Origin: a virus
Length of the DNA stretch: 36,622 nt
Direction: 5' to 3' (one strand)
Virus record (IMG/VR): IMGVR_UViG_3300010391_000161
Location: 1 to 36,622 of that record
The notes below the pieces were generated by a model. That model was not told the origin of the DNA. It worked only from the letters and a program-made list of their open reading frames with translations, and ran no database searches. Position numbers and translations under genes: made by a program. Positions 9,956 to 23,848 of the stretch are shown one piece after another. How positions within the stretch are numbered: the first letter of the stretch is position 1; every line of letters begins with the position of its first letter.

Positions 9956-10537
9956 GTGGGCAGGCCGCTCAAAAAACGCAAGGTCGTGACCGCACCATTG
10001 GCGCCCGAGCACCCGTGGGAGCGACAGCCCTCGGAGTCCGACACGGCCTGGGGGGCGTTTGTGACATACCGCGACCTCGGGCCCGACGAGCGCCCTCTCG
10101 CGAAGCTCGTGCAGAAGTACGCCAAGGGCAGGGCCAACTTCACGCGCTGGTCGTCGGCGTGGGACTGGGTCGCGCGCTGTGCGGTCTACGACGCTTGGGT
10201 CGACCGACAAGCGAGGCTCGCGAACATCGCCGCGATTAAGGACATGAAGGCGCGACACAGGCAGATCGCGATGTCCGCCGAGGGGGCCGGCGCCCTCGCG
10301 CTCAACAAGGTTATCGCCGCCGAGCGCAGCGGCACGACGCTGACTCTCAAGCCGTCCGAGATCAAGGACCTCCTCGAATTCGGCACGAAGCTCGAGAGGC
10401 TTACGCTCGGCGAGCCCGGCGAAATCGAGCGCGTCAGCGTCGAGGCCGCGCCCGTTGTTCACGACTACAGCGCCCTTAGCACGGAAGAGCTCTTGCAGCT
10501 CGGCGCGCTGACGCGCAAAGCGCGCGGCGACGCTTGA
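9956..10537 (+). CDS. terS: terminase small subunit
   Basis: 193 aa. It recognises phage DNA for packaging and recruits TerL. The N-terminus is basic (RPLKKRKVV). The central part (YAKGRANFTRWSSAWDWVARCAVYDAW) looks like the helix-turn-helix plus following helix seen in phage TerS-like proteins, and the rest is helical, suited to oligomer formation. The GTG start follows AAGGAT. The gene ends by overlapping the ATG of TerL (TGATG). The call combines weak family similarity with strong position evidence. Confidence 0.7.
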   Translation: MGRPLKKRKVVTAPLAPEHPWERQPSESDTAWGAFVTYRDLGPDERPLAKLVQKYAKGRANFTRWSSAWDWVARCAVYDAWVDRQARLANIAAIKDMKARHRQIAMSAEGAGALALNKVIAAERSGTTLTLKPSEIKDLLEFGTKLERLTLGEPGEIERVSVEAAPVVHDYSALSTEELLQLGALTRKARGDA

Positions 10538-13167
10538 TGAGCGCGCCGACCGCGCGGCGCAAGGGACCGCACCACAAGCAGAAGCTCGATGTGGTCGACT
10601 TGCGCGCCGTCGATCGCGAGATCTGCCTTCGTCAGTTCCGCAGGTTCGTGCCCGATGCCTTCGAGGTCGTGGAGGGCGGAGACGCCCACTTCTCGCTCGT
10701 GCGCGCCGGTAAGCGCTCGCCGAAGTTCATTGGCGGTTGGCACATCGACGCCATCGCCGATCACCTGCAAGCGGTTGCCGAGGATCAGATCAAACGACTC
10801 TTGATCAACGTGCCGCCGGGTACGTCCAAGAGCATTTTGGCTTGCGTGCTGTGGCCAGCATGGTTGTGGGCGCGCGATCCATCGCTCCGCTTCTTGTTCA
10901 GCAGCTACAGCGAAGATTTCACCAAGCGCGATTGCCGCCGCACGAAGGCCCTGATCGAGAGCGATTGGTATCGAAGCTTGTTCCCGGAGGTGAAACTCAA
11001 GCGCGACCCCGATACCGTGATGGAGCATCACACGACCGCCGAGGGCGAGCGGCACGGAGCCTCGACCGGCAGCGGTGTCACCGGCAAGCATGTACATTGT
11101 TTGCCGGCAGGGGTAAGAGTGCGTACGGAGCTCGGCGATTTAGACATCGCCGAGCTCGTGGCGATGCGCGAGCGCCCTCGTGTGTTGTCGATGAACCATC
11201 GAACGGGAAAGCTGGAGTGGCGACGTGTACAGGCCGTCAACGAGAGTCGAACGAACGAGCTTTTCGAGATCCGAACAGGTGGTGGCCGTTCGTTGCGGGC
11301 TACCGGGGAGCATCCCCTCTTCGTTCGTCAGCGGGGATACAGGCAGGCGCGTGATCTTGCCGACGGTGAAGCGCTGCTCGCCGTCGGGGAAGTGCCAGGC
11401 ATGCGGCACCAAGACCGACAGGCAGAGCGTTGTGTGCAAAACCTGTTACGGCAGGGCGAGAAAAGTCGTGCTCGAGATCGCGTGCTTTGCATGCGACAGG
11501 CGATTCGCGAAGCCGTTGTACGAGTACGAGAAGGCGCTGCGGCGAAAGCCCGACTCGCGCTTCTTCTGCTCGCGCGCGTGTTCGACAAGGCCAGGCGCGC
11601 GTGGCTACGTGAACGCCGTTTCGCGCAATTGCTTGATGTGCAGGACACCTGTGCCTTCGCGCCCGCGTCGGAGGTATTGCGGGGAGGCGTGCCGCCTTGC
11701 GGCGAGGGCCTCGCGGAGAAAGATCAAGGCGCGCAAGTGCGCGGCGTGCGCGGCGACGTTTCGGCCGAAGAGTTCTCGTCAGCGTTTTTGCGGGAAGGCG
11801 TGCGCGAACAGGGATCACGCGACGCGAATGATCGGGAGGGGCAACTCGCACTACAGGGACGGGAAGAGCTATGCCCTCTGGTTCGACCTGATGCGCGAGC
11901 CGATTCTCGAGCGCGACAGTGGCTGCGTCGCCTGTGGGACGACGACCGGCAGGATTGTGATCCATCACATCGACGAGGACGTGGCGAACAACACGCCGGA
12001 GAACCTCGTGGCGCTCTGCGCGCGCTGTCACCTCCGACATCACAAATCGAGGTGGACGCCGTTTCCGTGGTTGAGCGATCGCGCTGTAACAGCGTCGCGG
12101 TCTATGACCTCCAGGTGGAGGGAAACCACAACTTCTTTGCGAACGAGATTCTCGTCCACAACTGCATAGTCGAGGACGATCCTCTAAAAGCTCAGGACGC
12201 TCGCAGCCCACGCGCTCGCGAGGAGGTATGGGACTACCGCACGCAGACGCTCGGCTTTCGCCTCTTGCCCGAAGCGGGCTGGCGTATCGTGATCATGCAA
12301 CGCCTGCACGAGGACGATCCGAGCGGCCGCATCCTCGCGCGCGCCGGCAAGGACCGCGAGGAGGATCCCGACGAGTATGTCCACCTGTGCCTGCCGATGG
12401 AGTATGAACCACAGCGGCGCTGCACGACGGCGCTCTTCGCTGACCCGCGCAAGGAAGAGGGCGAGCTGCTTTGGCCACAGCGCATGAACCGCAGGTTTGT
12501 TGACGCGCTCAAAAGCCCGCAGGGTCTCGGAGAGTACGGCTTCGCGGGCCAGGCGCAACAGCGCCCCGCGCCAGCCGAGGGCGGCGTGATCAAGCGCGCT
12601 TGGTGGCGCTACTGGGAGACGATGCCGACCGAGCTCGACAAGGTGATCGTCTCGTGGGATCTGACGTTCAAGCACACCGGCTCGAGCTGGGTCGTCGGGC
12701 AGGTATGGGGCAAGAAGGGGCCGGACGCCTTTCTGCTTGATCAGGTGCGCGACAAGATGGACTTCCCGGCGCAGCTCGCCGCCATCCGGGCGCTCGCTAC
12801 GAAGTGGCCCGAGACGAAGGAGAAGCTGATCGAGGATGCGGCGAACGGCGCGGCCGTGATAAGCGTTCTCAGGAAGGAGATCCCCGGTGTCATACCGATA
12901 CCTCCGAGAGGCTCGAAAGAAGCTCGGCTCGCCGCCGTCGCGGTGTTCGTCGAAGCCGGCAACGTGTATTTGCCGCACCCGAGGATTGCTCCCTGGATCG
13001 ACGGGCTGGTAGAGGAGGTCACGATGTTCCCGAACGGCTCGAACGACGATCAGGCCGACTGTGCATCACAGGCGCTTTCGCGGCTGTTCGCGTCGGGCCC
13101 GAAGAAGCTCACGCAAGCCTTTAACCTCGCGGGCGCCGGCGAGAGGCCGAGCCCGTGGAATCAGTGA
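10537..13167 (+). CDS. terL: terminase large subunit with intein
   Basis: 876 aa before splicing, 521 after. It is the ATP-driven DNA packaging motor and nuclease. The ATPase Walker A is PPGTSKS (93-99). Walker B is IVEDD (544-548), immediately after the intein, which spans residues 188-542, so splicing is needed to join the ATPase. The C-terminal RNase-H-like nuclease has the expected acidic residues: Asp708 in SWDLTF, Asp767 in IEDAANG and the NDDQAD group (837-841). ATG 10537 overlaps the TerS stop; a TTG one codon upstream is less likely. The intein's middle third is translated in a frame that is not the coding frame of the DNA (see the nested HNH gene), giving an Arg-rich filler. Confidence 0.92.
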   Translation: MSAPTARRKGPHHKQKLDVVDLRAVDREICLRQFRRFVPDAFEVVEGGDAHFSLVRAGKRSPKFIGGWHIDAIADHLQAVAEDQIKRLLINVPPGTSKSILACVLWPAWLWARDPSLRFLFSSYSEDFTKRDCRRTKALIESDWYRSLFPEVKLKRDPDTVMEHHTTAEGERHGASTGSGVTGKHVHCLPAGVRVRTELGDLDIAELVAMRERPRVLSMNHRTGKLEWRRVQAVNESRTNELFEIRTGGGRSLRATGEHPLFVRQRGYRQARDLADGEALLAVGEVPGMRHQDRQAERCVQNLLRQGEKSRARDRVLCMRQAIREAVVRVREGAAAKARLALLLLARVFDKARRAWLRERRFAQLLDVQDTCAFAPASEVLRGGVPPCGEGLAEKDQGAQVRGVRGDVSAEEFSSAFLREGVREQGSRDANDREGQLALQGREELCPLVRPDARADSRARQWLRRLWDDDRQDCDPSHRRGRGEQHAGEPRGALRALSPPTSQIEVDAVSVVERSRCNSVAVYDLQVEGNHNFFANEILVHNCIVEDDPLKAQDARSPRAREEVWDYRTQTLGFRLLPEAGWRIVIMQRLHEDDPSGRILARAGKDREEDPDEYVHLCLPMEYEPQRRCTTALFADPRKEEGELLWPQRMNRRFVDALKSPQGLGEYGFAGQAQQRPAPAEGGVIKRAWWRYWETMPTELDKVIVSWDLTFKHTGSSWVVGQVWGKKGPDAFLLDQVRDKMDFPAQLAAIRALATKWPETKEKLIEDAANGAAVISVLRKEIPGVIPIPPRGSKEARLAAVAVFVEAGNVYLPHPRIAPWIDGLVEEVTMFPNGSNDDQADCASQALSRLFASGPKKLTQAFNLAGAGERPSPWNQ
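11098..12162 (+). mobile_element. TerL intein (355 aa in the TerL frame)
   Basis: A Cys1-type intein between GKHVH and CIVEDD of TerL. The N-terminal splicing block starts CLPAGVRVRTELGDLDIAEL; block B is RSLRATGEHPLFV; the C-terminal block is VYDLQVEGNHNFFANEILV ending His-Asn, followed by Cys+1. These are the standard nucleophiles for class 1 splicing. From about 11390 to 12050 the TerL frame has no stop but shows shadow composition: in a 58-codon sample near 11880-12050 only about 45% of codons end in G/C, against about 84% in the +1 frame, where an HNH endonuclease is encoded. Confidence 0.92.
11366..12169 (+). CDS. HNH homing endonuclease nested in the TerL intein, +1 frame
   Basis: Up to 267 aa from a GTG at 11366; an earlier GTG at 11225 would add shadow sequence. 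Residues 4-27 hold CxxC pairs (KCQACG, VCKTCY), followed by at least four more Cys-pair units of the type FCSRAC, CLMC, YCGEAC, CAAC and FCGKAC. Next comes GNSHYRDGKSYALW and a canonical HNH core: CVACG, His200-His201, Asn213, then CARCH with His222, and His225-His226. Codon third positions support this frame. No clear Shine-Dalgarno sequence was seen. The frame runs on to a TAG seven bases past the intein end, so its last 35 residues are antiphase to the splicing block. It is either a nested gene or a shifted intein nuclease domain. Confidence 0.8.
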   Translation: MKRCSPSGKCQACGTKTDRQSVVCKTCYGRARKVVLEIACFACDRRFAKPLYEYEKALRRKPDSRFFCSRACSTRPGARGYVNAVSRNCLMCRTPVPSRPRRRYCGEACRLAARASRRKIKARKCAACAATFRPKSSRQRFCGKACANRDHATRMIGRGNSHYRDGKSYALWFDLMREPILERDSGCVACGTTTGRIVIHHIDEDVANNTPENLVALCARCHLRHHKSRWTPFPWLSDRAVTASRSMTSRWRETTTSLRTRFSSTTA

Positions 13168-13361: not shown

Positions 13362-15785
13362 ATGGCCAAGGCCGCGTTCACCAAGTCGTTGCAGCTAGAC
13401 CTCGGGGTCCAGGGCTCGACGGGCCTCAAGCAGTACGGCGGTTGGATCTTCGAGGAGTTTCTGCCGCGGCTCCAGGGGCGCACGGGCGTCCTGACCTACC
13501 GCGAGATGATCGACAACAGCTCGACCATCGGCGCGATCCGCTACACGATCCGCAGCCTCATTCTCCAAGCCGAGTGGCGCGTCGAGCCGGCTGGCGACAC
13601 GCCGGAAGCGCGCGAATGGGCTGAGTTCGTTGAGGGCTGCCTCGACGACATGAGCCATACCTTCGAGGATTTTCTGAGCGAGCTCCTCTCGCACCTCGAC
13701 TATGGCTGGGCCTATCACGAGCTCGTCTACAAGATCCGTCGTGGGCCCGAGGCGACGAACCCCAGCTACCGCTCGAAGCACGACGACGGGAAGGTCGGCT
13801 GGCGCAAGATCCCCATTCGCTCGCAGGACACGCTCGACCGCTGGGAGTTCGAGCCCAGCGACAACGGCGTTCGCGGCATGTGGCAGTTCGATCCCTACTC
13901 GCCGAAGGGCAGCCAGCTCTTCATCCCCATTGAGAAGGCGTTGCTCTTCCGCACCTCGGGGAACAAGGGCAATCCAGAGGGCCGCGCTTTGACGCTGGAT
14001 ACGTCGGTGCCGACGCCCGATGGCTGGACCACGATGGGCGCGATCGAGGTGGGCGATAAGGTCTATGACGAGCGTGGACGGATTCGGTACGTCACCGCGA
14101 AGACAGAAGTGTTCCGCGATAGGCCCGTTTACGAGATCGAGTTCAAGGATGGTTCCGCGGTGCGAGCGGACACGAACCACCTATGGAGCGTGACGGACTA
14201 CAACGATCGAACCCTCGGCCGCGAGCCGCGAACGATCAGCACCGAAGAGTTGTTCGCCAAGAGCCAGAAGTCGACTGACCTGATCTTCTCGTGCGGCCGG
14301 GCGCCGGTGTTGGATGCTCCGAATCAGCCGCTGCCCGTCGATCCCTACCTGCTGGGTTATTGGCTCGGCGATGGCGCGATCGGGACGGCGACGTTCTCCG
14401 TATGCGACGAAGATCTGCCAAGTCTGCTGGAGCAGATCAGCGCGGCGGGCCACGAGCCTGGCGCGAGGAACGGCAACAACATCAGTGTGCCAGGTGTGTT
14501 CCGCGAGGCGCTGAAAGTCGCGGGCGTCTACCGCAACAAGCACATCCCGGCGACTTATCTGCGGGCGTCGTCTGAGCAAAGGCTCGCGCTGTTGCAAGGG
14601 CTGATGGATTCGGACGGGTTCACGCCGGCGAAGGATGCCAAGGATGTCGCAAGCGTGTTCCACAACACGGATCTGAATTTGATCCACGGGGTCGCCGAAC
14701 TCGTGCGGACGCTCGGGGGACGGCCGAAGGTCAAACTCCGCCAGCGGGCTGGCCGGCTCGGCGGCGAGCTATTCGGAAGACAGATCGTCGGCAGGCGCGA
14801 CCTGTGGGAGGTCCGGTTTTCGCTTGATCTCCCGACCCATCGACTCCCGCGGAAGCGCGAGCGGCAGAAGCTCGTCTCCGAATGCGATCGGGAGGTCGCG
14901 CTCAGCCATCACGTCATTCGCAACATTCGCCGGGTCGAGAACGCGGACACGGTATGCATCGAGGTCGACGCACCTTCACACCTGTTCCTCGCGGGCGATA
15001 GCATGGTGCCGACGCACAACTCTATCTACCGCAACGCCGTGCTCGATTATTTCAAGTTCAAGCGGATCACCGACATCGAGGCGGTCGGCATCGAGCGCGA
15101 CATGACGGGCTTGCTCCACATGCAGGTGCCGATCGAGATCCTCCAGGCGGCGCCGGGCTCGATCGAGATGACCATACGCAGCGAGCTCGAGCGTATGCTC
15201 GGCTCGCTCAAGCGCGACGAGCGCGAGTTCGCCATGACGCCGCCCGAGCTCAACGAGGAGGGCATGCCGACGGGCTTCAAGCTCGGGCTGCTCGCCACCG
15301 GCGGCCGGCGCCAGATCGATACCAACGACATCGCGCTGCGCTACATGAACAGCATGACCATGTCGACGCTTGCCGACTTCCTCATGCTCGGCAAGAACGA
15401 TGTCGGAAGCTGGGCGCTGGCGTCCAGCAAGACGCGCCTCTTTTCGTTTGCGCTTGGCGCCATCATGGACGCCGTTGCGGCCGTGTTCAATCGCTTCGCC
15501 ATCCCGCGACTGATGGCGCTTAACAGCGTGCCGGTCGACCTTCACCCGCACCTCGTGCACGGCGACATCGAGTCACCGCCGCTCGACGAGATCGGCAACT
15601 ACATCACCTCGCTCGCCACCGCTGGGCTGCTCACGCCGACCAAGCCGCTCGAGCGCAAGCTGCTCGAGTTCGGCAGGCTGCCGGCGCCGCCCGTCGACGA
15701 AGAGGACAAGCCACTGCCAGGCGAAGGCGCTCGGATCGCGCCCGAGCAACTGCTGCTCCCGCTCGCGCAGCCTGGGGTCGGGTAG
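13362..15785 (+). CDS. portal protein (Mu gp29/DUF935-like) with intein
   Basis: 807 aa before splicing, 462 after. It forms the dodecameric ring through which DNA enters the head. The N-terminal extein (LTYREMIDNSSTIGAIRY, LDYGWAYHELVY, RSQDTLDRWEFE) and the C-terminal extein (ITDIEAVGIERDMTGLLHM, LADFLMLGKN) fit the DUF935/Mu gp29 portal family. The intein covers residues 209-553, between NPEGR and SIYRNA, a conserved portal segment. Start ATG 13362 follows GGGAGG. The gene lies between TerL and the MuF-like protein, as is usual. Confidence 0.9.
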   Translation: MAKAAFTKSLQLDLGVQGSTGLKQYGGWIFEEFLPRLQGRTGVLTYREMIDNSSTIGAIRYTIRSLILQAEWRVEPAGDTPEAREWAEFVEGCLDDMSHTFEDFLSELLSHLDYGWAYHELVYKIRRGPEATNPSYRSKHDDGKVGWRKIPIRSQDTLDRWEFEPSDNGVRGMWQFDPYSPKGSQLFIPIEKALLFRTSGNKGNPEGRALTLDTSVPTPDGWTTMGAIEVGDKVYDERGRIRYVTAKTEVFRDRPVYEIEFKDGSAVRADTNHLWSVTDYNDRTLGREPRTISTEELFAKSQKSTDLIFSCGRAPVLDAPNQPLPVDPYLLGYWLGDGAIGTATFSVCDEDLPSLLEQISAAGHEPGARNGNNISVPGVFREALKVAGVYRNKHIPATYLRASSEQRLALLQGLMDSDGFTPAKDAKDVASVFHNTDLNLIHGVAELVRTLGGRPKVKLRQRAGRLGGELFGRQIVGRRDLWEVRFSLDLPTHRLPRKRERQKLVSECDREVALSHHVIRNIRRVENADTVCIEVDAPSHLFLAGDSMVPTHNSIYRNAVLDYFKFKRITDIEAVGIERDMTGLLHMQVPIEILQAAPGSIEMTIRSELERMLGSLKRDEREFAMTPPELNEEGMPTGFKLGLLATGGRRQIDTNDIALRYMNSMTMSTLADFLMLGKNDVGSWALASSKTRLFSFALGAIMDAVAAVFNRFAIPRLMALNSVPVDLHPHLVHGDIESPPLDEIGNYITSLATAGLLTPTKPLERKLLEFGRLPAPPVDEEDKPLPGEGARIAPEQLLLPLAQPGVG
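13986..15020 (+). mobile_element. portal intein, class 3 with in-frame LAGLIDADG endonuclease
   Basis: 345 aa starting at an alanine (ALTLDTSVPTPDGW) and ending VPTHN before Ser+1. The lack of a residue-1 nucleophile plus Trp275 after the block-B His273, Cys532 in VCIEVD and Thr551 in PTHN gives the Trp-Cys-Thr set that defines class 3 inteins. Two LAGLIDADG helices are in frame: LLGYWLGDG (330-338) and LLQGLMDSDGF (410-420), so this is a complete, conventional homing intein. Third codon positions are noticeably less GC-rich than in the portal itself, consistent with separate origin. Confidence 0.92.
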
Positions 15786-17492
15786 ATGCCTCTCGTGCTC
15801 GTCAGCAAGGCGAAGCGCGCCCCAGCTCCTCACGCGCTGGCCGCCGAGTATGAACCGGCGACGCGCAACGTGCGCCAGTTCGCCCGCGCCGCAGCCTCGG
15901 CGTTGCGCGCTGCTTCGGCGCAAGCAGGCTCGGACGAGCTTCTTCGTCTGGTCGCAGCGCAGGCTCCGATCGACCAGATCCTCGCTGCGATGAAGCTCGA
16001 TTCAGGCTCCGAGCTGCTTGTGCCGGCGTACGAGCGCGTGCTTCAGACCACCATCGAGATCGAGAAGAAGCGCAAGCGCAGCGTGCCGACCGTGCGGGTC
16101 AACCCGCGCTCGATCGAGTGGGCGCGCGAGCGCGGAGCCAAGCTCGTGCAAGGCGTCAGCGCCCAGACGCGCACCGCGATCCGCAACGTCGTGGCTCGCC
16201 AAGTGGCGCGGGGCGAGCGAGCCGAGTCCATGGTGCGCGGCATCATGCGGGTCGTCGGTCTCTTGCCGCGCGACGAGGCTGCGGTGGCGACCCGGCGCAT
16301 TCTTCTGCTCGAGCGCGGCGAGGACATCGAGCGCGCCGAGCGCCTGTCCGACAAGTACGCCGACGAGCTGCTCGAGGCTCGCGCGATGCGCATCGCGCGC
16401 ACCGAGACCGTCGCGGCCCAGAACCGCGGGCTGCTCGACACCTGGCAGGACGCCTTCGAGTCCGGGGCGCTGCCCGATACGGTCGTGCGCGTGTGGGTAT
16501 CGGCACCTCCGAGCGAGAACCCGGGGCGCCCGTGCCCCATCTGTCTCGAGCTTGATGGCACCGAGGCGCCAATGGGCCAGTCCTTCGAGTCGGCACTGCT
16601 CGACGAAAGCGTCCTGACCCCACCGGCGCATCCAAACTGCTTACCTGGGGATGCGGCAGTAGCAGCCGAGAGCATCGCGGCCGCGAGCGTACGGCGATAT
16701 GATGGAGATCTCGTCGTTATCCGCACGGCCGCAGGTCACCGTCTCGCCTGCACCCCGAACCATCCGATACTCGGGACTGGCGGCTGGCTTCCTGCGCGCT
16801 CGTTCCACATAGGAGACCACGTAGTCGGCGCTCGCCTCGGTGAGCGGATGCCTTCGCTCATCGACCCAGATCATGAGCACCGACCAGCCGCGATCGAGCA
16901 GGTAGCGCGTGCGCTCGAGGAGTCGCGCGTGGCGACGGCCCTGCCAGTGCCAATTTCCTCCGAGGACTTCCATGGCGACGGGAAAGGCTCCGAGGTCGCA
17001 GTTGTATGGGCCGATGGCTTGTTGAGGCAAGACCTCGAGTCCGCGATCAGCCAACATGCGAGCCAGCTTGATCTCGCTTCGAGAAGCGCCGAGCAGCCTC
17101 GACTGCCGCGTGATCGCCGCCTGCTCGAGCACTCGGCGCGAGACGCGCATCCCGCGCCGAGCTTCATGGGCACTCTTTGTGAGCGCCACGCGCTGCTCTG
17201 GACTCAGGCGCAGCATGCGAAGGCGATTCGCCTCGCTCAGACCGCGTGGCTTGACGCCGGCGGCAAGAAGTCGAGTGCGCACCCCGCCCCGAGCGATGTG
17301 GAAGGATTCGCTCAGCGACTTCTCCGACGCACCAGCCAGATACAGGCGCACAAGATCATCGACGTCCACGTCCAATCGTTTAGCAACCACGTGTTCAACC
17401 TCGAGACGGCGGTCGGCGCCTACATAGCACAGGGCCTCGTGACCCACAACTGCCGCTGCACGATGACGCTGCGAAGAGAGAGCGCGTCATGA
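15786..17492 (+). CDS. MuF/SPP1 gp7-like head morphogenesis protein with intein
   Basis: 568 aa before splicing, 297 after. It is a minor head protein that binds the portal and helps assembly and DNA ejection. The extein has the family's signature: ARAMRIARTETVAAQN helix, then CPICLELDG and, at the end, the HPNCRC motif. The intein (residues 285-555) splits this motif exactly between Asn and Cys (HPN / CRC), so splicing restores the metal-binding-type signature. Start ATG directly follows the portal TAG. A Vsr-like endonuclease ORF lies on the opposite strand within the intein. In a 37-codon extein sample about 92% of third positions are G/C, against about 62-72% in the intein. Confidence 0.9.
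   Translation: MPLVLVSKAKRAPAPHALAAEYEPATRNVRQFARAAASALRAASAQAGSDELLRLVAAQAPIDQILAAMKLDSGSELLVPAYERVLQTTIEIEKKRKRSVPTVRVNPRSIEWARERGAKLVQGVSAQTRTAIRNVVARQVARGERAESMVRGIMRVVGLLPRDEAAVATRRILLLERGEDIERAERLSDKYADELLEARAMRIARTETVAAQNRGLLDTWQDAFESGALPDTVVRVWVSAPPSENPGRPCPICLELDGTEAPMGQSFESALLDESVLTPPAHPNCLPGDAAVAAESIAAASVRRYDGDLVVIRTAAGHRLACTPNHPILGTGGWLPARSFHIGDHVVGARLGERMPSLIDPDHEHRPAAIEQVARALEESRVATALPVPISSEDFHGDGKGSEVAVVWADGLLRQDLESAISQHASQLDLASRSAEQPRLPRDRRLLEHSARDAHPAPSFMGTLCERHALLWTQAQHAKAIRLAQTAWLDAGGKKSSAHPAPSDVEGFAQRLLRRTSQIQAHKIIDVHVQSFSNHVFNLETAVGAYIAQGLVTHNCRCTMTLRRESAS
16638..17450 (+). mobile_element. MuF intein/Hint element (271 aa)
   Basis: A Cys1 intein: the first residues are CLPGDAAVAAESIAAASV, block B is HRLACTPNHPIL (Thr-Pro-Asn-His), and the C-terminal block is VFNLETAVGAYIAQGLVTHN before Cys+1. 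No LAGLIDADG or HNH is in the sense frame. The middle (ISSEDFHGDGKGSEVAVVW) is protein-like and stop-free but not a nuclease I recognise. The opposite strand carries a homing-endonuclease-like ORF over the same bases with codons exactly facing codons. Sense and antisense third positions over 160 codons (16860-17339) are about 72% and 74% G/C, so composition does not decide which strand is under stronger selection. Confidence 0.88.
16641..17390 (-). CDS. Vsr-like (EDxHD) homing endonuclease, antisense inside the MuF intein
   Basis: 249 aa from a GTG with GAGGT eight bases upstream; the open frame reaches back to a GTG at 17447. N-terminal residues 9-50 (DVDDLVRLYLAGASEKSL onward) look like a helix-turn-helix, followed by a basic linker (SEANRLRMLRLSPEQRVAL). 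Residues 100-175 resemble the Vsr-fold nuclease family: Glu106 in SRSEIKLARML, Asp132 in IGPYNCDLG, Glu141 in PVAMEVLGGNWHW and His148. Its TAA lies on the second codon of the intein, so the gene is wholly inside the element. Antisense ORFs arise easily here by chance, so the case rests on the ordered motifs and not on length. Confidence 0.72.
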   Translation of the reverse strand: MVAKRLDVDVDDLVRLYLAGASEKSLSESFHIARGGVRTRLLAAGVKPRGLSEANRLRMLRLSPEQRVALTKSAHEARRGMRVSRRVLEQAAITRQSRLLGASRSEIKLARMLADRGLEVLPQQAIGPYNCDLGAFPVAMEVLGGNWHWQGRRHARLLERTRYLLDRGWSVLMIWVDERRHPLTEASADYVVSYVERARRKPAASPEYRMVRGAGETVTCGRADNDEISIISPYARGRDALGCYCRIPR

Positions 17493-17584
17493 TCGAGGCG
17501 CTCGCCGATCTGTTCTGGCAACCTCTCGAGGTGATAGGACTTCGTCGGCGGTCCGAAGGCTGGGCCGGAGGTGCGAAGCCGTGA
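17489..17584 (+). CDS. 31-aa coupled mini-ORF
   Basis: Starts with an ATG overlapping the MuF TGA (ATGA) and ends with a TGA overlapping the GTG of the 1255-aa fusion gene (GTGA). The peptide (MIEALADLFWQPLEVIGLRR onward) has an amphipathic, hydrophobic first half and a Gly/Arg-rich tail. Its clearest job is translational coupling across the gap; a peptide function is unproven. Confidence 0.5.
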   Translation: MIEALADLFWQPLEVIGLRRRSEGWAGGAKP

Positions 17585-20500
17585 ACAAGTCCGCGATGCA
17601 GCTCGACGAGGTTCTGACCTTGGCGGAGGGCAAACTGCCTGGCTGGGCGCTCGCGGTGCTCAAGGCCCGGACGCGCAAGGCGATCGACGAAGGCGACTCG
17701 TCCAAGAGTGGACAAGTTGTGTCCGATGGCCCGAACGGCGAGGCGTCGCGGCAGACCCAGAAGCGCGGCCTGATGATCGCGCTCATGCTACCGAAGGCCG
17801 TCGCGATCAAGCTCGCGCAAGAGGGCGGCGAGCTACCCGAGAAGATGCACTGCACGCTCGCCTATCCGGGCAAGGTCGAAGATCTCCCGGCCGATGCGCT
17901 CGAGCGCGCCAAGCGCGCCGTCGCGAAGGTGGCCGCGGAGTTTGCCCCGTTCGTCGCCATGATCGGCGGCGTAGGGCGCTTCAATGCTTCGCTCACCTCG
18001 GACGGCAAGGATGTGCTGCACGCTTCGCTCGACGCGCCGATCTTGCCAGCGCTCCAGCAGGCCATTGCCGCGGCGCTCGACGAAGAGAAGATGTCACCGA
18101 AGCGCGAGCACGGCTTCGACCCTCACGTCACGCTTTGCTATCAGGACAAGGGCACCAAGGCTGAGCTGCCACAGGTGCCGACCACGCCCGTGATCTTCGA
18201 GTCGTTGTCGATCGTCGCCGGCGATGAGCGGATCGCCGATGTGCCTCTCGCCGGCGTCCGCGTGTTCAAGTCCGAGCCGATTGCCAAGAAGTTGACCGAG
18301 GCACAGCGCGCAGAAGTCGAGCTCGAGACCGAGCGCATTCGCGAGCGCTGCAAGACGCCCGAGGCTCGGCAGCCTCATGCGTTCAAGGCCGCTGAGTGGA
18401 CGCATCCGAACGGCCACCCGCGCTGCGCAGTCTGCGGCGATGAGGAGCCTGTCGGCGGTCGCTGCGAAGGCTACGTGGAGAAGAGCGGCCCAACACCGGG
18501 CGACGCCCACGTCGACGGACCGCTGTGGGGGCCGGGCTACGACTCCGAGTACGTCGCTGAGATGATGGCCGAGATGCGCCGTCGCGACTTGACGCTTGAT
18601 CAGGCGAAAGCTCGCGCCAAATCTGAGCTGCGTGATGAGGGCGCAACCGTTGAAGAGGCAGCCGAGCTCGTCGCGAAAGCGCGGCCGCTGAGCCGCGAGT
18701 ATCTCGAAGAAGCGTGGACGCTGGCGCGCAAGGTTCTACCGCCTTGGGCCTGGGCTCAGATCCACCAGCAGGCGAGGCCGAAGGCGAGCGTGCGAGGCGC
18801 AGCTCGCGTGCGCGAGGAAGAGCCGACGCTGTTCGAGAAGATTGCCCTCACTGACATCCGGCCCGGCAAGCTGCGCGAGCTGCCCGACGATGAGGTGCGG
18901 CTTGCGTGGGCGCGACTGCACCAGTGGCATGCGAACGCCAAGCGCACCAAGCGCCCGATCGAGAACTTCGTCAATGCCGCGCTCTGGACGTTGGACGAGA
19001 TGGCCCGGCGCGGCATCGACGTCGAGCGCGATGACGAACTCGTGCGGGCGATCGAGGAGCTGCGCGGCAAGCGCGCGTCGGTCGACACCTTCGCCAAGCT
19101 CAACGCTCTTCCGCGCGACCTCGTAGTCGTGCGCGACTTCGTCTCGGTGGTCGGCTCGACGGCGAAGGGCGACCGCGAGTCCGAAGACCTCGACGTGTTG
19201 CTACGGGCTCCGTGGAACCGCGAGGCGGGGCACTTCGCCATCCAAGCGGAGAACATCTGGCTGCCTCTGCGCAACGCGCTAGACGCCGACAAAACCGACA
19301 AGCTGCACTGGATCGACAATCCGCAGGGCGCGCACGGCGACTTCATCCCGCTCTACGATCTCGTGCTGCGCCGCCGCGACAAGCTCGCCGCCGAGGTGAT
19401 CAAGAGCACGGAGGATGCGGGCGTGCTGCTCGACGACGCCATCGCCTTGAACGCGGCGCTCGTCAGCGGCGAGACGCCGATGACCGAAGAAGCGCACGCC
19501 AAGCTCGCCGTCCTCCTGGATACGGCGCGTCGCGAGCTCGGCGAACCAAACGAGAAGAGCGCTCCGCAAGTCGAGAAGATCGCGCTGGCCGACAAGGTCG
19601 AGCCGCCGATCGACAAGGTCGAGTCGCCGATCGAGCTGTCGATGGAAAAGGCTGCCGTCGAGCCAGAGGGGGTCGAGCCATCGGTGCCCAGCTCCGGTCC
19701 CGTGGGAGCAAAGGTGCTGTTCATCGGCTCGTCGCCGGATCCAGTCGAAGCTGCGCGCAAGGAGCCGTTCGTCGGCCAATCGGGCGAGACGCTCAACGAG
19801 CTGTACCTAGGTCCGCTCGGACTTTCTCGGTCCGAGATCGCCGCGACCAATGTGGTGCCCATGCCGCTTGCGGATGATGATGGGCGCCCGCGCGAGCCGA
19901 CGGACGAGGAGGTCAAGCGATGGCTTCCGTGGCTCGAGAGCGAGATCGAGCGGCTCCAGCCCAAGACGATCATCGCGCTCGGGAACGTCGCTAAGCGCGT
20001 GCTCGGCGATCGCGCCCAAGCTGCGCTGCCGCACCCGGCGGCCGTGCGACGCTTCGGCGATTCCGGTGAGGTGTCGCGCAAGCTGCGCAGGGTGCGCGAG
20101 CTGCTCGGTCAGCCGGCAGCGAAGATCGAGAAGCAACCGGAGTCCAGCGAGGGCGGCGAGGAGACCAGCGGCTTTGCAGCATTCCGCGCTTGGGAGCGCA
20201 CGTGGCAAGACCAGCTCCCGCTCTCTGGCAAGGGCAAGTTCGTCTACCAGCATCACTGGCGCGGGCTCGACGAGGACCAAGCGCGCTCGGCCGGCGACGA
20301 GCAGCTCTTGCAGACCGATCACAGCGTGCACGGCGATCTGCGGCTCGAGGGGCAGAACGGCGAGCTGTGGGGCTGGGCAGTATTCATCGGCAGCGCCGCC
20401 GACAACAAGCGCGTCGGCGGCGACAAGCTCTTCGCGATGAACGATGGCAAGCTTTCCGAGCAAGACAAGCTGCAAGCCTCAAACAAGCTGCCGCAGCCGA

Positions 20501-21348
20501 AGCCGTGGCTCGAAGTCGGCATCGGCAAGCCCATGGTGGTGGAGCCCGGTGGCGTCGGCTCGACGGCGAACAAGTGGTCCAAGCTCTTCGCGCTCGACAC
20601 CGGCACGTACCAGCTCGGCGTGGCGCGCCAGCACAGCGTCGAGATCTTCCTTGACGGGAAGCACCTCCGTGGGCGATACCTAGTACAGTTCGCGCCCATC
20701 GGTGACAAGCGAGTCTGGCTGATCGACAAGCCAGCCGATCAGAAACCGATGGCAGAGACGCGCGAGCTCGCCGATGTAATAGGCGAATTGAGGCGGAAGC
20801 GACAGCGGTACTTGTTCTGGGGGAAGCCCGGAGAAGCGCCGCAAAAGCTCGATGTTGCGACCGGCAAGGTCGTCAAGTCGGCAATCGTACCGTTGCTCAA
20901 GGAGCGAACGCTCGAGGACAAGCGGATCGTTTACGGCGTCGTCTTGGACCCCTACATCGTCGATGCCCACGAAGACTGGGTCTCGCCGAACATGGTCGAA
21001 GAGACAGCGCACGGATGGTTCAAGGGTTCTCGGCTCGTCACGCTTCACCCCAAGACGCACGCGGAAGCGCAGGCCGTTGAGAGCTCGATCGTCGAGTATC
21101 CTTCCCGGCGCGACTACGTGAACGCCAGGCTCGGCGAGCCGCATAGGGCGTGGCGCAGGAAGTTCGGCGAAGACGTCGTTCATTCCGGCGCTTGGATCCT
21201 GGGCGTGCAGCTCAGCCCGGAATTGTGGGAAGCATACAAGCGCGACGAGATCGCTGCGTTCAGCATCGAGGGCTTCGGCATCCGCACGCCGACGACAGTG
21301 AAAGCGATGCCGAACGTCACCTTCGTGGACCTCGTCAGCGCCAAGTAA
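17581..21348 (+). CDS. giant fusion: 2H phosphoesterase, nucleotidyltransferase, UDG-like, LigD-PE-like, XkdF-like head protease
   Basis: 1255 aa in a single open frame. Segments in order: a 2H phosphoesterase fold with His90-Cys-Thr92 and His182-Val-Thr184 about 90 residues apart; a cysteine-containing linker; a nucleotidyltransferase core with GSTAKGD (525-531) and Asp536/Asp538; a uracil-DNA-glycosylase-like domain about 711-845 (VLFIGSSPD, EPFVGQSGETLN, LPHPAAV) lacking iron-sulphur cysteines; a LigD 3'-phosphoesterase-like domain with His891/His892 and HGDLRLE (His917, Asp919, Arg921); and about 1110-1255 an XkdF-like phage protease (YGVVLDPYIVDAHEDWVSP, AFSIEGFG with Ser1228). The protease position before scaffold and capsid is classical for head maturation. 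The other parts may be packaged or cut free as DNA/RNA repair enzymes. Each domain call is from motifs. Confidence 0.75.
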   Translation: MNKSAMQLDEVLTLAEGKLPGWALAVLKARTRKAIDEGDSSKSGQVVSDGPNGEASRQTQKRGLMIALMLPKAVAIKLAQEGGELPEKMHCTLAYPGKVEDLPADALERAKRAVAKVAAEFAPFVAMIGGVGRFNASLTSDGKDVLHASLDAPILPALQQAIAAALDEEKMSPKREHGFDPHVTLCYQDKGTKAELPQVPTTPVIFESLSIVAGDERIADVPLAGVRVFKSEPIAKKLTEAQRAEVELETERIRERCKTPEARQPHAFKAAEWTHPNGHPRCAVCGDEEPVGGRCEGYVEKSGPTPGDAHVDGPLWGPGYDSEYVAEMMAEMRRRDLTLDQAKARAKSELRDEGATVEEAAELVAKARPLSREYLEEAWTLARKVLPPWAWAQIHQQARPKASVRGAARVREEEPTLFEKIALTDIRPGKLRELPDDEVRLAWARLHQWHANAKRTKRPIENFVNAALWTLDEMARRGIDVERDDELVRAIEELRGKRASVDTFAKLNALPRDLVVVRDFVSVVGSTAKGDRESEDLDVLLRAPWNREAGHFAIQAENIWLPLRNALDADKTDKLHWIDNPQGAHGDFIPLYDLVLRRRDKLAAEVIKSTEDAGVLLDDAIALNAALVSGETPMTEEAHAKLAVLLDTARRELGEPNEKSAPQVEKIALADKVEPPIDKVESPIELSMEKAAVEPEGVEPSVPSSGPVGAKVLFIGSSPDPVEAARKEPFVGQSGETLNELYLGPLGLSRSEIAATNVVPMPLADDDGRPREPTDEEVKRWLPWLESEIERLQPKTIIALGNVAKRVLGDRAQAALPHPAAVRRFGDSGEVSRKLRRVRELLGQPAAKIEKQPESSEGGEETSGFAAFRAWERTWQDQLPLSGKGKFVYQHHWRGLDEDQARSAGDEQLLQTDHSVHGDLRLEGQNGELWGWAVFIGSAADNKRVGGDKLFAMNDGKLSEQDKLQASNKLPQPKPWLEVGIGKPMVVEPGGVGSTANKWSKLFALDTGTYQLGVARQHSVEIFLDGKHLRGRYLVQFAPIGDKRVWLIDKPADQKPMAETRELADVIGELRRKRQRYLFWGKPGEAPQKLDVATGKVVKSAIVPLLKERTLEDKRIVYGVVLDPYIVDAHEDWVSPNMVEETAHGWFKGSRLVTLHPKTHAEAQAVESSIVEYPSRRDYVNARLGEPHRAWRRKFGEDVVHSGAWILGVQLSPELWEAYKRDEIAAFSIEGFGIRTPTTVKAMPNVTFVDLVSAK

Positions 21349-21424: not shown

Positions 21425-22252
21425 ATGGCAGAGAAGTCTATCAACGCACTGACCAATCTCGAAACGCTCGGCGTGAGCCTGGTGCGACGAGGCGCGAACA
21501 AGAGAAAGTTTGCGATCACAAAGTCGGAGGGTCCTATCATGGACGAAAAGGCTATCGAGCTGTTGACGACCGTGCTCAAGGAAGCCAGTTACGACGGCGA
21601 AGAGAAGGTGCTCGAGCAGCTCAAGAAGGCGCAGCTCGACGAGAAGGCGATGAATGCTGTCAACGGCGCCATTCGCATCCTCTCAGCGTTCAGCGACAAC
21701 CCGGAGATCAAGAAGCTGCTCGCGGGCCTCAAGGCGGCGGTCGGCGGAGAGGGCTATCCCATGCCGAAGGCAGCCAAGAAGGCGGACGACAAGAAGCCCA
21801 CGGGCTACCCGATGCCGATGCAGAAGGCGCTCGAAGGCATGCCCGACGAGCAGCGCGCAGCATTTGAGCCCGTCATGAAGGCTCTGTGGGAGGCATCGGA
21901 GGCTGCGGCCACCGAGCGCATCCAGAAGGCCGAGGAGCGTGCCGTCAAGACCGAGGCGATCCTCAAGTCCGAGCGCGACGAGCGGCTCAGCAAGGAATTC
22001 GTCGCCAAGGCGGCCACCGAGTACAGCAACGTGCCCGGCAAGTCCGAGGAACTCGGCGCCATCTTGAAGTCGCTGCACGATGCCTCTCCCGAGCTCTGCT
22101 CGAAGATCGAGGGCGTGCTCAAGTCGGCGCAGGCAATCCTCAAGGAAGGCTCGATCCTCGTCGAGAAGGGACGCGCGGGTGAAGGTAACGCCAGCGACGA
22201 TCCGTGGTCCAACATCGAGAAGGCCGCGGAAGCGGCCAGCGTCGCGCAGTAA
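21425..22252 (+). CDS. scaffold-like head protein
   Basis: 275 aa, rich in Lys, Glu and Ala and largely helical, as expected of a scaffold. The start (GVSLVRRGANKRKFAIT) resembles the segment often found at the C-terminus of phage head proteases, suggesting it was split from the protease gene. The middle has a Pro/Lys-rich linker (GYPMPKAAKKADDKKPTGY) before a long coiled-coil-like region. AGGAG precedes the ATG. Lying between protease and capsid, it is probably cleaved and removed during head maturation. Confidence 0.65.
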   Translation: MAEKSINALTNLETLGVSLVRRGANKRKFAITKSEGPIMDEKAIELLTTVLKEASYDGEEKVLEQLKKAQLDEKAMNAVNGAIRILSAFSDNPEIKKLLAGLKAAVGGEGYPMPKAAKKADDKKPTGYPMPMQKALEGMPDEQRAAFEPVMKALWEASEAAATERIQKAEERAVKTEAILKSERDERLSKEFVAKAATEYSNVPGKSEELGAILKSLHDASPELCSKIEGVLKSAQAILKEGSILVEKGRAGEGNASDDPWSNIEKAAEAASVAQ

Positions 22253-22648: not shown

Positions 22649-22675
22649 AGCGTGACCCAAGAAAGGAGAACGAAC

Positions 22676-23848
22676 ATGAGTCTCGAATTGGTCAAGAAGT
22701 CCTACGCGCCGTGGGTTCGGGGAGCACCTGGAGCTTTCCGGGCGATCCAGAAGGCCGAGAAGGTGTCGGAGTTCATGCGCACCGAGAAGGGCGCCGAGAT
22801 GTACGCTCAGTACCTCTTGGCTCACCCCGAGCAGGTGCACGCGCACGCCGGACCGATCATGAAGTCGCTGATCATGAAGGGCCAGCCCACACCGGGCGAC
22901 GGCCATGTGAACCAGCCTCTTTCGATGATCTCGATCGCGTTCCTGCAAGACCTCAACGAGTTCATTTCGGACAAGGTGTTCCCGAACATCCCGGTCCAGA
23001 AGAGCTCGGACAGGTACTACTTCTACCCGAAGGGCAACTGGTTCCGGTCGCAAGCCAAGGAGCGTGCGCCGGCTACCGAGTCTGCGGGCAGCGGGTACGA
23101 TCTGGACTCGACCCCGACGTACAACGCCGCGGTCAAGGCCGTGCACAAGGATATCGACGACCAGCTCCGTGCGAACGCGGACCCGATGATCGACCTCGAT
23201 CGCGACGGGACCGAGTTCGTCACCCGGCAGCTCGCGCTCAAGCGCGAGAAGGATTGGGCGGCCCGCTTCTTCACGACTAGCGTGTGGACCGGTTCGACCA
23301 CGGGCGGCGACATCACGCCTGGCACCCTCTGGTCGGCGCCGGGCTCGACGCCGATCGAGGACATCCGGGCGCAGAAGTCGAGCATCAAGACCAAGACGGG
23401 CTACAAGCCCAACACGCTCGTTCTCGGAAACAGGGCGTGGGACGTGCTCCAGGATCACCCTGAGTTCACGGACCGCATCAAGTACACCGAGCGAGGCATC
23501 GTGGGCCTGGACCTCATCGCGGCGGTGCTCGAGCTCGACCAGGTGCTCGTCGCCACAGCGGTCGAGAACACCGCGGCCGAGGGTGCGGCTGATAGCATGG
23601 CCTTCGTGATGGACTCGAAGGACGCGCTGCTCTGCTACAGCAATCCGCGTCCGAGCTTGATGAGCCCCTCGGCAGGGTACATCTTCTCGTGGGCGGGCTA
23701 CCTCGGCGCTGGTCCTGCGGGCCAGCGTATGAGCCGCTTCCGCATGCAGCCTCTGCGTGCGGACCGCGTCGAGGGCGAGATCGCCTACGACATGAAGGTT
23801 GTGGCCCCCGAGCTCGGCGCGTTCTTCAACAACGCCGTCGCTCCGTAA
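22676..23848 (+). CDS. major capsid protein
   Basis: 390 aa. The N-terminal 70 residues are helical and could be a delta-domain removed by the protease. The rest (LNEFISDKVFPNIPVQKSSDRYYFY, DWAARFFTTSVW, LVLGNRAWDVLQDHPEF, RMQPLRADRVEGEIAYDMKVV) fits a HK97-fold capsid protein. AAAGGAGAA lies before the ATG at 22676, a strong ribosome site that suits a highly made protein. It is followed by a 12-bp hairpin. Confidence 0.85.
   Translation: MSLELVKKSYAPWVRGAPGAFRAIQKAEKVSEFMRTEKGAEMYAQYLLAHPEQVHAHAGPIMKSLIMKGQPTPGDGHVNQPLSMISIAFLQDLNEFISDKVFPNIPVQKSSDRYYFYPKGNWFRSQAKERAPATESAGSGYDLDSTPTYNAAVKAVHKDIDDQLRANADPMIDLDRDGTEFVTRQLALKREKDWAARFFTTSVWTGSTTGGDITPGTLWSAPGSTPIEDIRAQKSSIKTKTGYKPNTLVLGNRAWDVLQDHPEFTDRIKYTERGIVGLDLIAAVLELDQVLVATAVENTAAEGAADSMAFVMDSKDALLCYSNPRPSLMSPSAGYIFSWAGYLGAGPAGQRMSRFRMQPLRADRVEGEIAYDMKVVAPELGAFFNNAVAP

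Follow-up and report, generated by a model that had tools for sequence, protein, structure and literature searches.

Head proteases of the HK97 type are usually 200–400 aa long. In HK97 itself, cleavage falls at K103/S104, that is, after a lysine (PMC10275583, in the part available to us). Phage polyvalent proteins that end in an assemblin-like peptidase have also been published, and the available parts of that report predict that they are processed in the head (Iyer et al. 2017, PMC5512222). Here we describe a gene from a 36.6 kb virus contig, IMG/VR record IMGVR_UViG_3300010391_000161, all 36,622 nucleotides of which were analyzed and are called the window below. Its product joins several enzyme-like domains to a C-terminal XkdF protease domain, and is in our view probably a polyvalent virion polyprotein with its own prohead protease, cut in the head into pieces that are injected to process or protect ends. 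It shows three hallmarks of polyvalent proteins: a single chain combining at least two unrelated enzyme domains, a C-terminal assemblin-type peptidase (XkdF, which we take to be assemblin-like), and a context of virion and packaging genes.

Results

The frame at 17581..21348 (+) is confirmed to encode a 2H phosphoesterase domain, a probable nucleotidyltransferase (NTase), a uracil-DNA glycosylase (UDG) fold, a fold like the 3'-phosphoesterase (PE) of LigD, and a C-terminal XkdF domain. A reading made without database searches (the sequence-only reading) had proposed one uninterrupted gene of 1255 codons with this content. The frame is indeed single and open throughout, and protein size, interdomain linkers and position in the head module are all as that reading described.

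17581..21348, + strand: polyprotein gene, 1255 aa, GTG start
17596..17682, + strand: N-terminal helical tag (aa 6-34), resembling the tag at aa 371-400
17758..18255, + strand: 2H phosphoesterase domain (aa 60-225), Pfam PF13563 and PF02834, with HCT (90-92) and HVT (182-184)
18691..19068, + strand: helical tag plus helical domain (aa 371-496), by family hidden Markov model (HMM)
19108..19386, + strand: probable pol-beta-type NTase (aa 510-602), by motif and by relatives' profile matches
19684..20106, + strand: UDG-fold domain (aa 702-842), Pfam PF03167 and predicted fold
20167..20775, + strand: LigD 3'-phosphoesterase-like domain (aa 863-1065), by family profile and predicted fold
20908..21279, + strand: XkdF (Peptidase_S78_2) protease domain (aa 1110-1233), Pfam PF14550

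Three of the domains score above the curated Pfam cut-offs: 2H (PF13563, aa 88-194, 50.9 bits against 27), UDG (PF03167, aa 704-824, 69.7 bits against 24.3) and XkdF (PF14550, aa 1110-1233 of 1255, 49.9 bits against 24). Both HxT/S motifs of the 2H domain are in place (H90-C-T92 and H182-V-T184) and are common to relative L014. An AlphaFold2 model built from 56 sequences covers aa 364-1255 with a mean predicted local distance difference test (pLDDT) score of 81, and its UDG-fold domain matches T. thermophilus UDG (1ui0/1ui1) with Z 19.6. The PE-like domain of the window falls below its Pfam cut-off (17.7 bits against 31.1); LigD-PE entries top the matches of the family profile to PDB chains (E 2e-4 to 5e-4), and the model fits 3p43 with Z 13.4 (123/124 aligned). 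Chance motifs were rejected as an explanation, the Pfam and fold scores for UDG, 2H, XkdF and PE being far above chance.

The five domain names given by the sequence-only reading hold as folds or motifs, the NTase being the least secure. In its favor, the G..DxD motif is invariant in 50/50 aligned members (G108, D119 and D121, with S109 in at least 90%), and 9/50 match NTP_transf_2 (best 2.6e-6). Against it, the window segment gave E 0.054 in one profile search and nothing at E<=0.05 in another, and a fold search with the segment listed no NTase, with ribosomal and helical proteins ranking highest (Z about 6). This part of the sequence-only reading is retained as probable.

The tag at aa 6-34, within which an HPhelix profile matches aa 8-32, and the tag at aa 371-400 were compared by BLAST of the two segments, giving E 6e-6 for that pair alone. 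The model of aa 371-496 has pLDDT mostly 84-95, falling between the tag and the helices. In the NTase alignment, 5/50 members show weak similarity to the pyrimidine dimer glycosylases (PF03013, best 6.4e-4), which raises the possibility that the helical region is a further remnant of DNA repair. The N-terminal 364 aa, used alone as a query for related loci, found no match.

Two points had escaped the sequence-only reading: a whole family shares this arrangement, and most of the relatives have a DNA ligase as well. Comparison with related XkdF fusions gave a large IMG/VR family, 68 nonredundant open reading frames (ORFs), the majority >800 aa. They come from 80 ORFs with a PE/XkdF profile match, 12 of which were removed as >95% identical; the sources were 11 loci from a first scan, 69 from a profile scan that matched 103 stretches, and two from genomes, one a Bacillota and one a Dehalococcoides metagenome-assembled genome (MAG). 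The core order is helical tag, NTase, optional methyltransferase, ATP DNA ligase, optional UDG, LigD-PE and XkdF; Acb1, 2H, D12 methylase and metallo-beta-lactamase (MBL) domains are further options. Local domain HMMs, seeded from and run on the same protein set, were counted in 70 proteins (the 68 ORFs, the window protein and a neighboring ORF of L011, some cut at contig ends): PE in 68, XkdF in 57, ligase in 55, NTase in 52, the helical region in 48, UDG in 38, methyltransferase in 23, MBL in five, and 2H and Acb1 in two each. Among 56 uncut proteins >300 aa the counts are PE 55, ligase 46, XkdF 46, NTase 45 and UDG 28. Pfam searches of 24 relatives' ORFs found XkdF in 19, ATP DNA ligase in 18, UDG in 14, D12 adenine methylase in three and Acb1 in two. 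The window has no PF01068 ligase, nor has one other of the 15 records searched. The alignments used here (A1-A4) are chosen subsets of 10, 56, 50 and 40 rows.

Fusion by misassembly was rejected, as dozens of separate contigs show the same architecture; two neighboring ORFs of L011 were considered as a single protein and not joined. Among 50,697 phage records the PE domain found no match, and no phage record covers most of the polyprotein, 52 matching it in parts. Ku was found in 0/28 records searched, which may be fragments, and a claim of Ku-dependent nonhomologous end joining (NHEJ) was dropped on that ground.

Several relatives carry additional cargo. The Dehalococcoides MAG protein (L078:5863-9816) combines NTase, ligase and PE domains with a D12 methylase matched over two stretches and has no protease, so that the repair cassette also occurs apart from XkdF. 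An Acb1 domain directed against the cyclic oligonucleotide-based anti-phage signaling system (CBASS) is present in L012:2-2107 and L041:5854-10062 (115.1 and 79.6 bits, well above the cut-off), pointing to a putative counter-defense cargo in the head. A relative of 2592 aa (L076:3982-11757) holds an intein splicing domain, LAGLIDADG stretches, HNH, D12 methylase and MBL inside the polyprotein.

The suggestion of the sequence-only reading that the linkers could be cut gains backing at the sequence level from a lysine motif, [VIL].K[AS], which is common to the linkers, the scaffold and the major capsid protein (MCP) propeptides, and whose distribution supports cutting of the linkers. Candidate sites in the window, and the two other proteins concerned, are as follows.

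18268..18270, + strand: candidate cleavage lysine K230 (VFK-SEP), motif position
18481..18528, + strand: candidate cleavage lysine K301, then a copy of the MCP N-terminus (aa 302-316, SGPTPGDAHVDGPLW)
18676..18678, + strand: candidate cleavage lysine K366 (VAK-ARPLSREYLEE), just upstream of the Met start of 13 relatives
19402..19404, + strand: candidate cleavage lysine K608 (VIK-STE), model pLDDT 44
20131..20133, + strand: weaker candidate cleavage lysine K851 (IEK-QPE; P1' not [AS]), model pLDDT 52
20875..20877, + strand: candidate cleavage lysine K1099 (VVK-SAI), model pLDDT 69
21425..22252, + strand: scaffold-like protein, same lysine motif abundant
22652..23848, + strand: MCP, ATG at 22676; propeptide end IMK-GQPTPGD, K at 22877-22879

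The window polyprotein has seven [VIL].K[AS] sites, five of them at junctions, and model confidence is low at K366, K608, K851 and K1099 (pLDDT 44-69). Across the family the motif occurs 112 times in 250 linkers, against a shuffled mean of 24.1 and a maximum of 38 in 500 shuffles (about 4.7-fold), in a test that was not blind because the pattern had been seen by eye before counting; counts were limited to linkers of <=80 aa, longer ones being left out. Its density is 1.43 per 100 aa in linkers versus 0.27 in domains. Taking one protein per 70% cluster (31 clusters) gives 45 motifs versus 10.6 after shuffling, and one per 60% cluster (13 clusters) gives 19 versus 5.1 (maximum 13 in 1000). Substituting R, E, D or Q at the lysine position brings the counts to chance or near it, and R or E in place of K lies below chance in the linkers.

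Scaffold proteins, which are the usual substrate of head proteases, show an excess equal to that of the linkers (285 vs 60.5 shuffled); they and the MCPs were searched for the motif after the linker pattern had been noticed. The scaffold set was chosen by HMM, replacing earlier picks with wrong genes or frames for L002, L013 and L017. At the motif place K alone stands out in scaffolds, and K and W in linkers, where the W signal arises because of a fixed homologous motif. No excess is seen in MCP (21 vs 21.1), sheath (14 vs 10.9), tape (27 vs 24.0), or the TerL parts (3 vs 3.9; C-part 5 vs 13.1), and the portal count is mildly raised (43 vs 30.0).

The boundaries of the capsid protein itself bear on the same motif. 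Aligned on the anchor DVHVN in 36 anchored nonduplicate relatives, the MCPs have a Met <=9 aa before the anchor in 33/36, and that of L038 begins there without one. Where most relatives begin, the three MCPs with a propeptide read IAK-G (L013), IAK-S (L014) and IMK-G (window). A similar pattern is found at the internal tag. Its start was placed in 21 proteins, and in 13 of them a Met directly precedes it and the motif is absent; the proteins with cargo upstream (window, L014 and L013, the last also with a Met) have [VIL]xK-A there, and L045 has IQK-S farther upstream, as read by eye.

Directly after K301, aa 302-316 of the window polyprotein nearly repeat the N-terminus of the mature MCP (22.3 bits by a position-specific scoring matrix for that N-terminus), and L041 has another such copy right after a candidate cut lysine (24.0 bits); the best of 1400 shuffled proteins reached 12.7 bits. 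Matches in L057 (8.0 bits, within the shuffled tail) and L043 (14.3 bits, borderline) were not counted. This capsid mimic is sporadic, because the nearest relative, L013, has no copy.

The polyprotein gene is flanked by MuF upstream and the scaffold gene downstream. Farther upstream lie TerL and a Mu-type portal; after the scaffold-like gene come a decoration-like gene (our reading), MCP, tail sheath and tape protein (the last by eye).

15786..17492, + strand: MuF-like head protein with intein-like insert, upstream neighbor

Intein-like inserts occur in each of three adjacent genes: TerL (10534-13167; intein splicing domain, aa 204-543), portal (13362-15785; LAGLIDADG, aa 405-483) and MuF (15786-17492; intein splicing domain, aa 293-555, score below the cut-off). 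A tRNA search found none, and PADLOC, run on three proteins, gave no match for the window polyprotein.

Discussion

We propose that the polyprotein would enter the prohead as one chain, as its helical tags and C-terminal protease domain suggest. The XkdF domain would then cut after the lysine of [VIL]xK-[A/S/G] at domain junctions and, judging by the motif statistics, may use the same signal to remove the scaffold and the MCP propeptide. Cuts at K230, K301, K366, K608, K851 and K1099 would free 2H, NTase, UDG-fold and LigD-PE-like pieces along with a bare protease of about 156 aa. The freed pieces may stay in the head, enter the host with the DNA, and there act on nucleic-acid ends, processing or protecting them. 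Relatives have a set of NTase, DNA ligase and PE, much like bacterial LigD with no Ku, and some add anti-CBASS (Acb1) or a DNA methylase. At the level of sequence, the domain make-up, family-wide conservation, genome position and shared lysine motif are supported; packaging, cleavage in the head, injection and enzymatic activity are steps that we infer.

Several observations weigh against cutting in the head into active enzymes. Two motif sites of the window stand away from junctions, K28 being part of the N-terminal tag and K72 of the 2H domain, and L033 has a long N-terminal extension with no motif at the tag. The MuF count is mildly raised (31 vs 17.3), the linkers share ancestry, which shuffling keeps and whose effect clustering only lessens, and helical scaffolds may favor some spacings. 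In the protease, a His column and a Ser column are conserved, which we take to be the catalytic residues; Ser1228 is kept in 55/55 aligned members, and the His is present in 54/55, the window having Pro1157 (codon 21049-21051) with a His directly before it. H1156 or H1160 might substitute for the column His, the window protease may be inactive, or Pro1157 may be a sequencing error. Finally, six relatives (L009, L067, L068, L069, L072 and L078) stop after PE, and XkdF was not found in their fetched stretches. The replaced His and these six relatives would suit a polyprotein that stays uncut as a large multidomain virion protein, with the lysine motif reflecting helix or linker composition, and the available parts of one report describe the N4 virion RNA polymerase as packaged uncut (PMC5512222). 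Composition can hardly explain the specificity for Lys over R, E, D and Q, or the boundary of the MCP propeptide, and we regard an uncut polyprotein as very unlikely.

The end-processing role proposed by the sequence-only reading is plausible, with the reservation that UDG, and apparently PE, are without some known catalytic residues. Family 4 UDGs have GExPG as their first motif, and Fe-S cysteines. The window has GSSPD and the relatives G[A/S]SP, without the first-motif Glu, and there is no Cys within aa 702-842; because neither feature of family 4 is found, the domain is filed as UDG-fold only. In the PE domain, the metal-site columns H37, H62, D64 and R66 (A4 numbering) are invariant in 40/40, HxDxR having been aligned to PDB chains and H37 assigned from the Q-x-H pattern and the residue order. 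By the residue list in the accessible part of PMC8656161, equivalents of Gln40, His42, His48, Asp50 and Arg52 of LigD are retained. The same part states that P. aeruginosa LigD requires both His84 and Tyr88, for which no His/Tyr pair was seen when the PE region was read by eye in the alignment. The UDG and PE domains could then be inactive, acting as DNA-binding or structural filler in the head, as G[A/S]SP in place of GExPG and the seeming absence of His84 and Tyr88 would suggest; the invariance of the metal site suggests instead that the PE chemistry has been retained, and we think inactivity of both somewhat unlikely.

In a different account the enzymes work in the infected cell, ahead of packaging or while it proceeds, repairing for instance nicks or ends in the replicated DNA, with the fusion only coupling their expression and bringing them to the prohead, and the cleaved pieces leaving or being degraded. 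Propeptides are generally expected to exit the head, according to the portion of PMC10052503 available to us. In addition, the polyprotein ligase may serve replication too, because it is the sole PF01068 ligase found in 11/15 records. The optional Acb1, D12 methylase and 2H cargo fits counter-defense early in infection better than packaging, and action confined to the infected cell seems to us unlikely.

Delivery of cut pieces with the genome remains the account we favor. We also offer, as a speculation that we rather doubt will hold in full, a wider version: an uncultured phage clade would carry a virion-borne, LigD-like end-repair kit as a protease-containing polyprotein, in which one lysine code directs the cutting of scaffold, propeptide and cargo, and some cargo is anchored to the shell until injection by an N-terminus that copies the capsid's. 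If true, prohead proteolysis would serve the release of a packaged enzyme kit besides head maturation, with cut sites readable from sequence. The virion cargo of uncultured phages would become predictable, and some phages may bring their own end-healing enzymes along with the genome.

Comparison with Known Systems

A related annotation is that of a Rhizobium phage RHph_TM16 gene, "DNA methyltransferase/prohead protease" (phrog_1530), which lies in a head module and is labeled as a methyltransferase with an S78_2-like protease; at 633 bases, the gene is too short for the other domains. The HK97-type proteases (gp4, S78) and B. subtilis XkdF (S78_2) belong to the same protease family as the window protein and occupy the same place in the order of head genes, and the lysine at the cut recalls K103/S104 of HK97. 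They are usually free-standing, whereas the window protease follows about 1100 aa of other domains in the same chain.

Like bacterial LigD, which combines PE, ligase and polymerase for NHEJ, the relatives join a LigD-PE fold, an ATP ligase and a nucleotidyltransferase. They differ in having the NTase in place of a primase-type polymerase and in domain order; no Ku accompanies them in the records searched, and the window copy is without the ligase.

The prohead protease motif of SPN3US and T4 is AxE, in contrast to [VIL]xK. As described in the available part of PMC10052503, those phages are similar in that one prohead protease recognizes a short motif in many head proteins, some of which are ejected into the host, and different in that the protease is separate and its substrates are the products of many genes.

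The polyvalent proteins of PMC5512222 are of the same general plan. In the parts of that paper available to us, they too combine several enzyme domains, 2H and pol-beta NTase among them, in one late head-module protein with a C-terminal peptidase, and packaging and injection are predicted. Its main text, so far as available, has 0 mentions of XkdF or glycosylase and three of ligase (RNA ligases or not shown in full), and the consulted parts do not describe the LigD-like set or a shared lysine motif. No description of such a fusion was found in openly licensed PMC papers. As far as searched, four features are new relative to this plan: the set of LigD-like domains, the extent of the family, the lysine signal that the polyproteins have in common with scaffold and MCP, and the copy of the capsid N-terminus.

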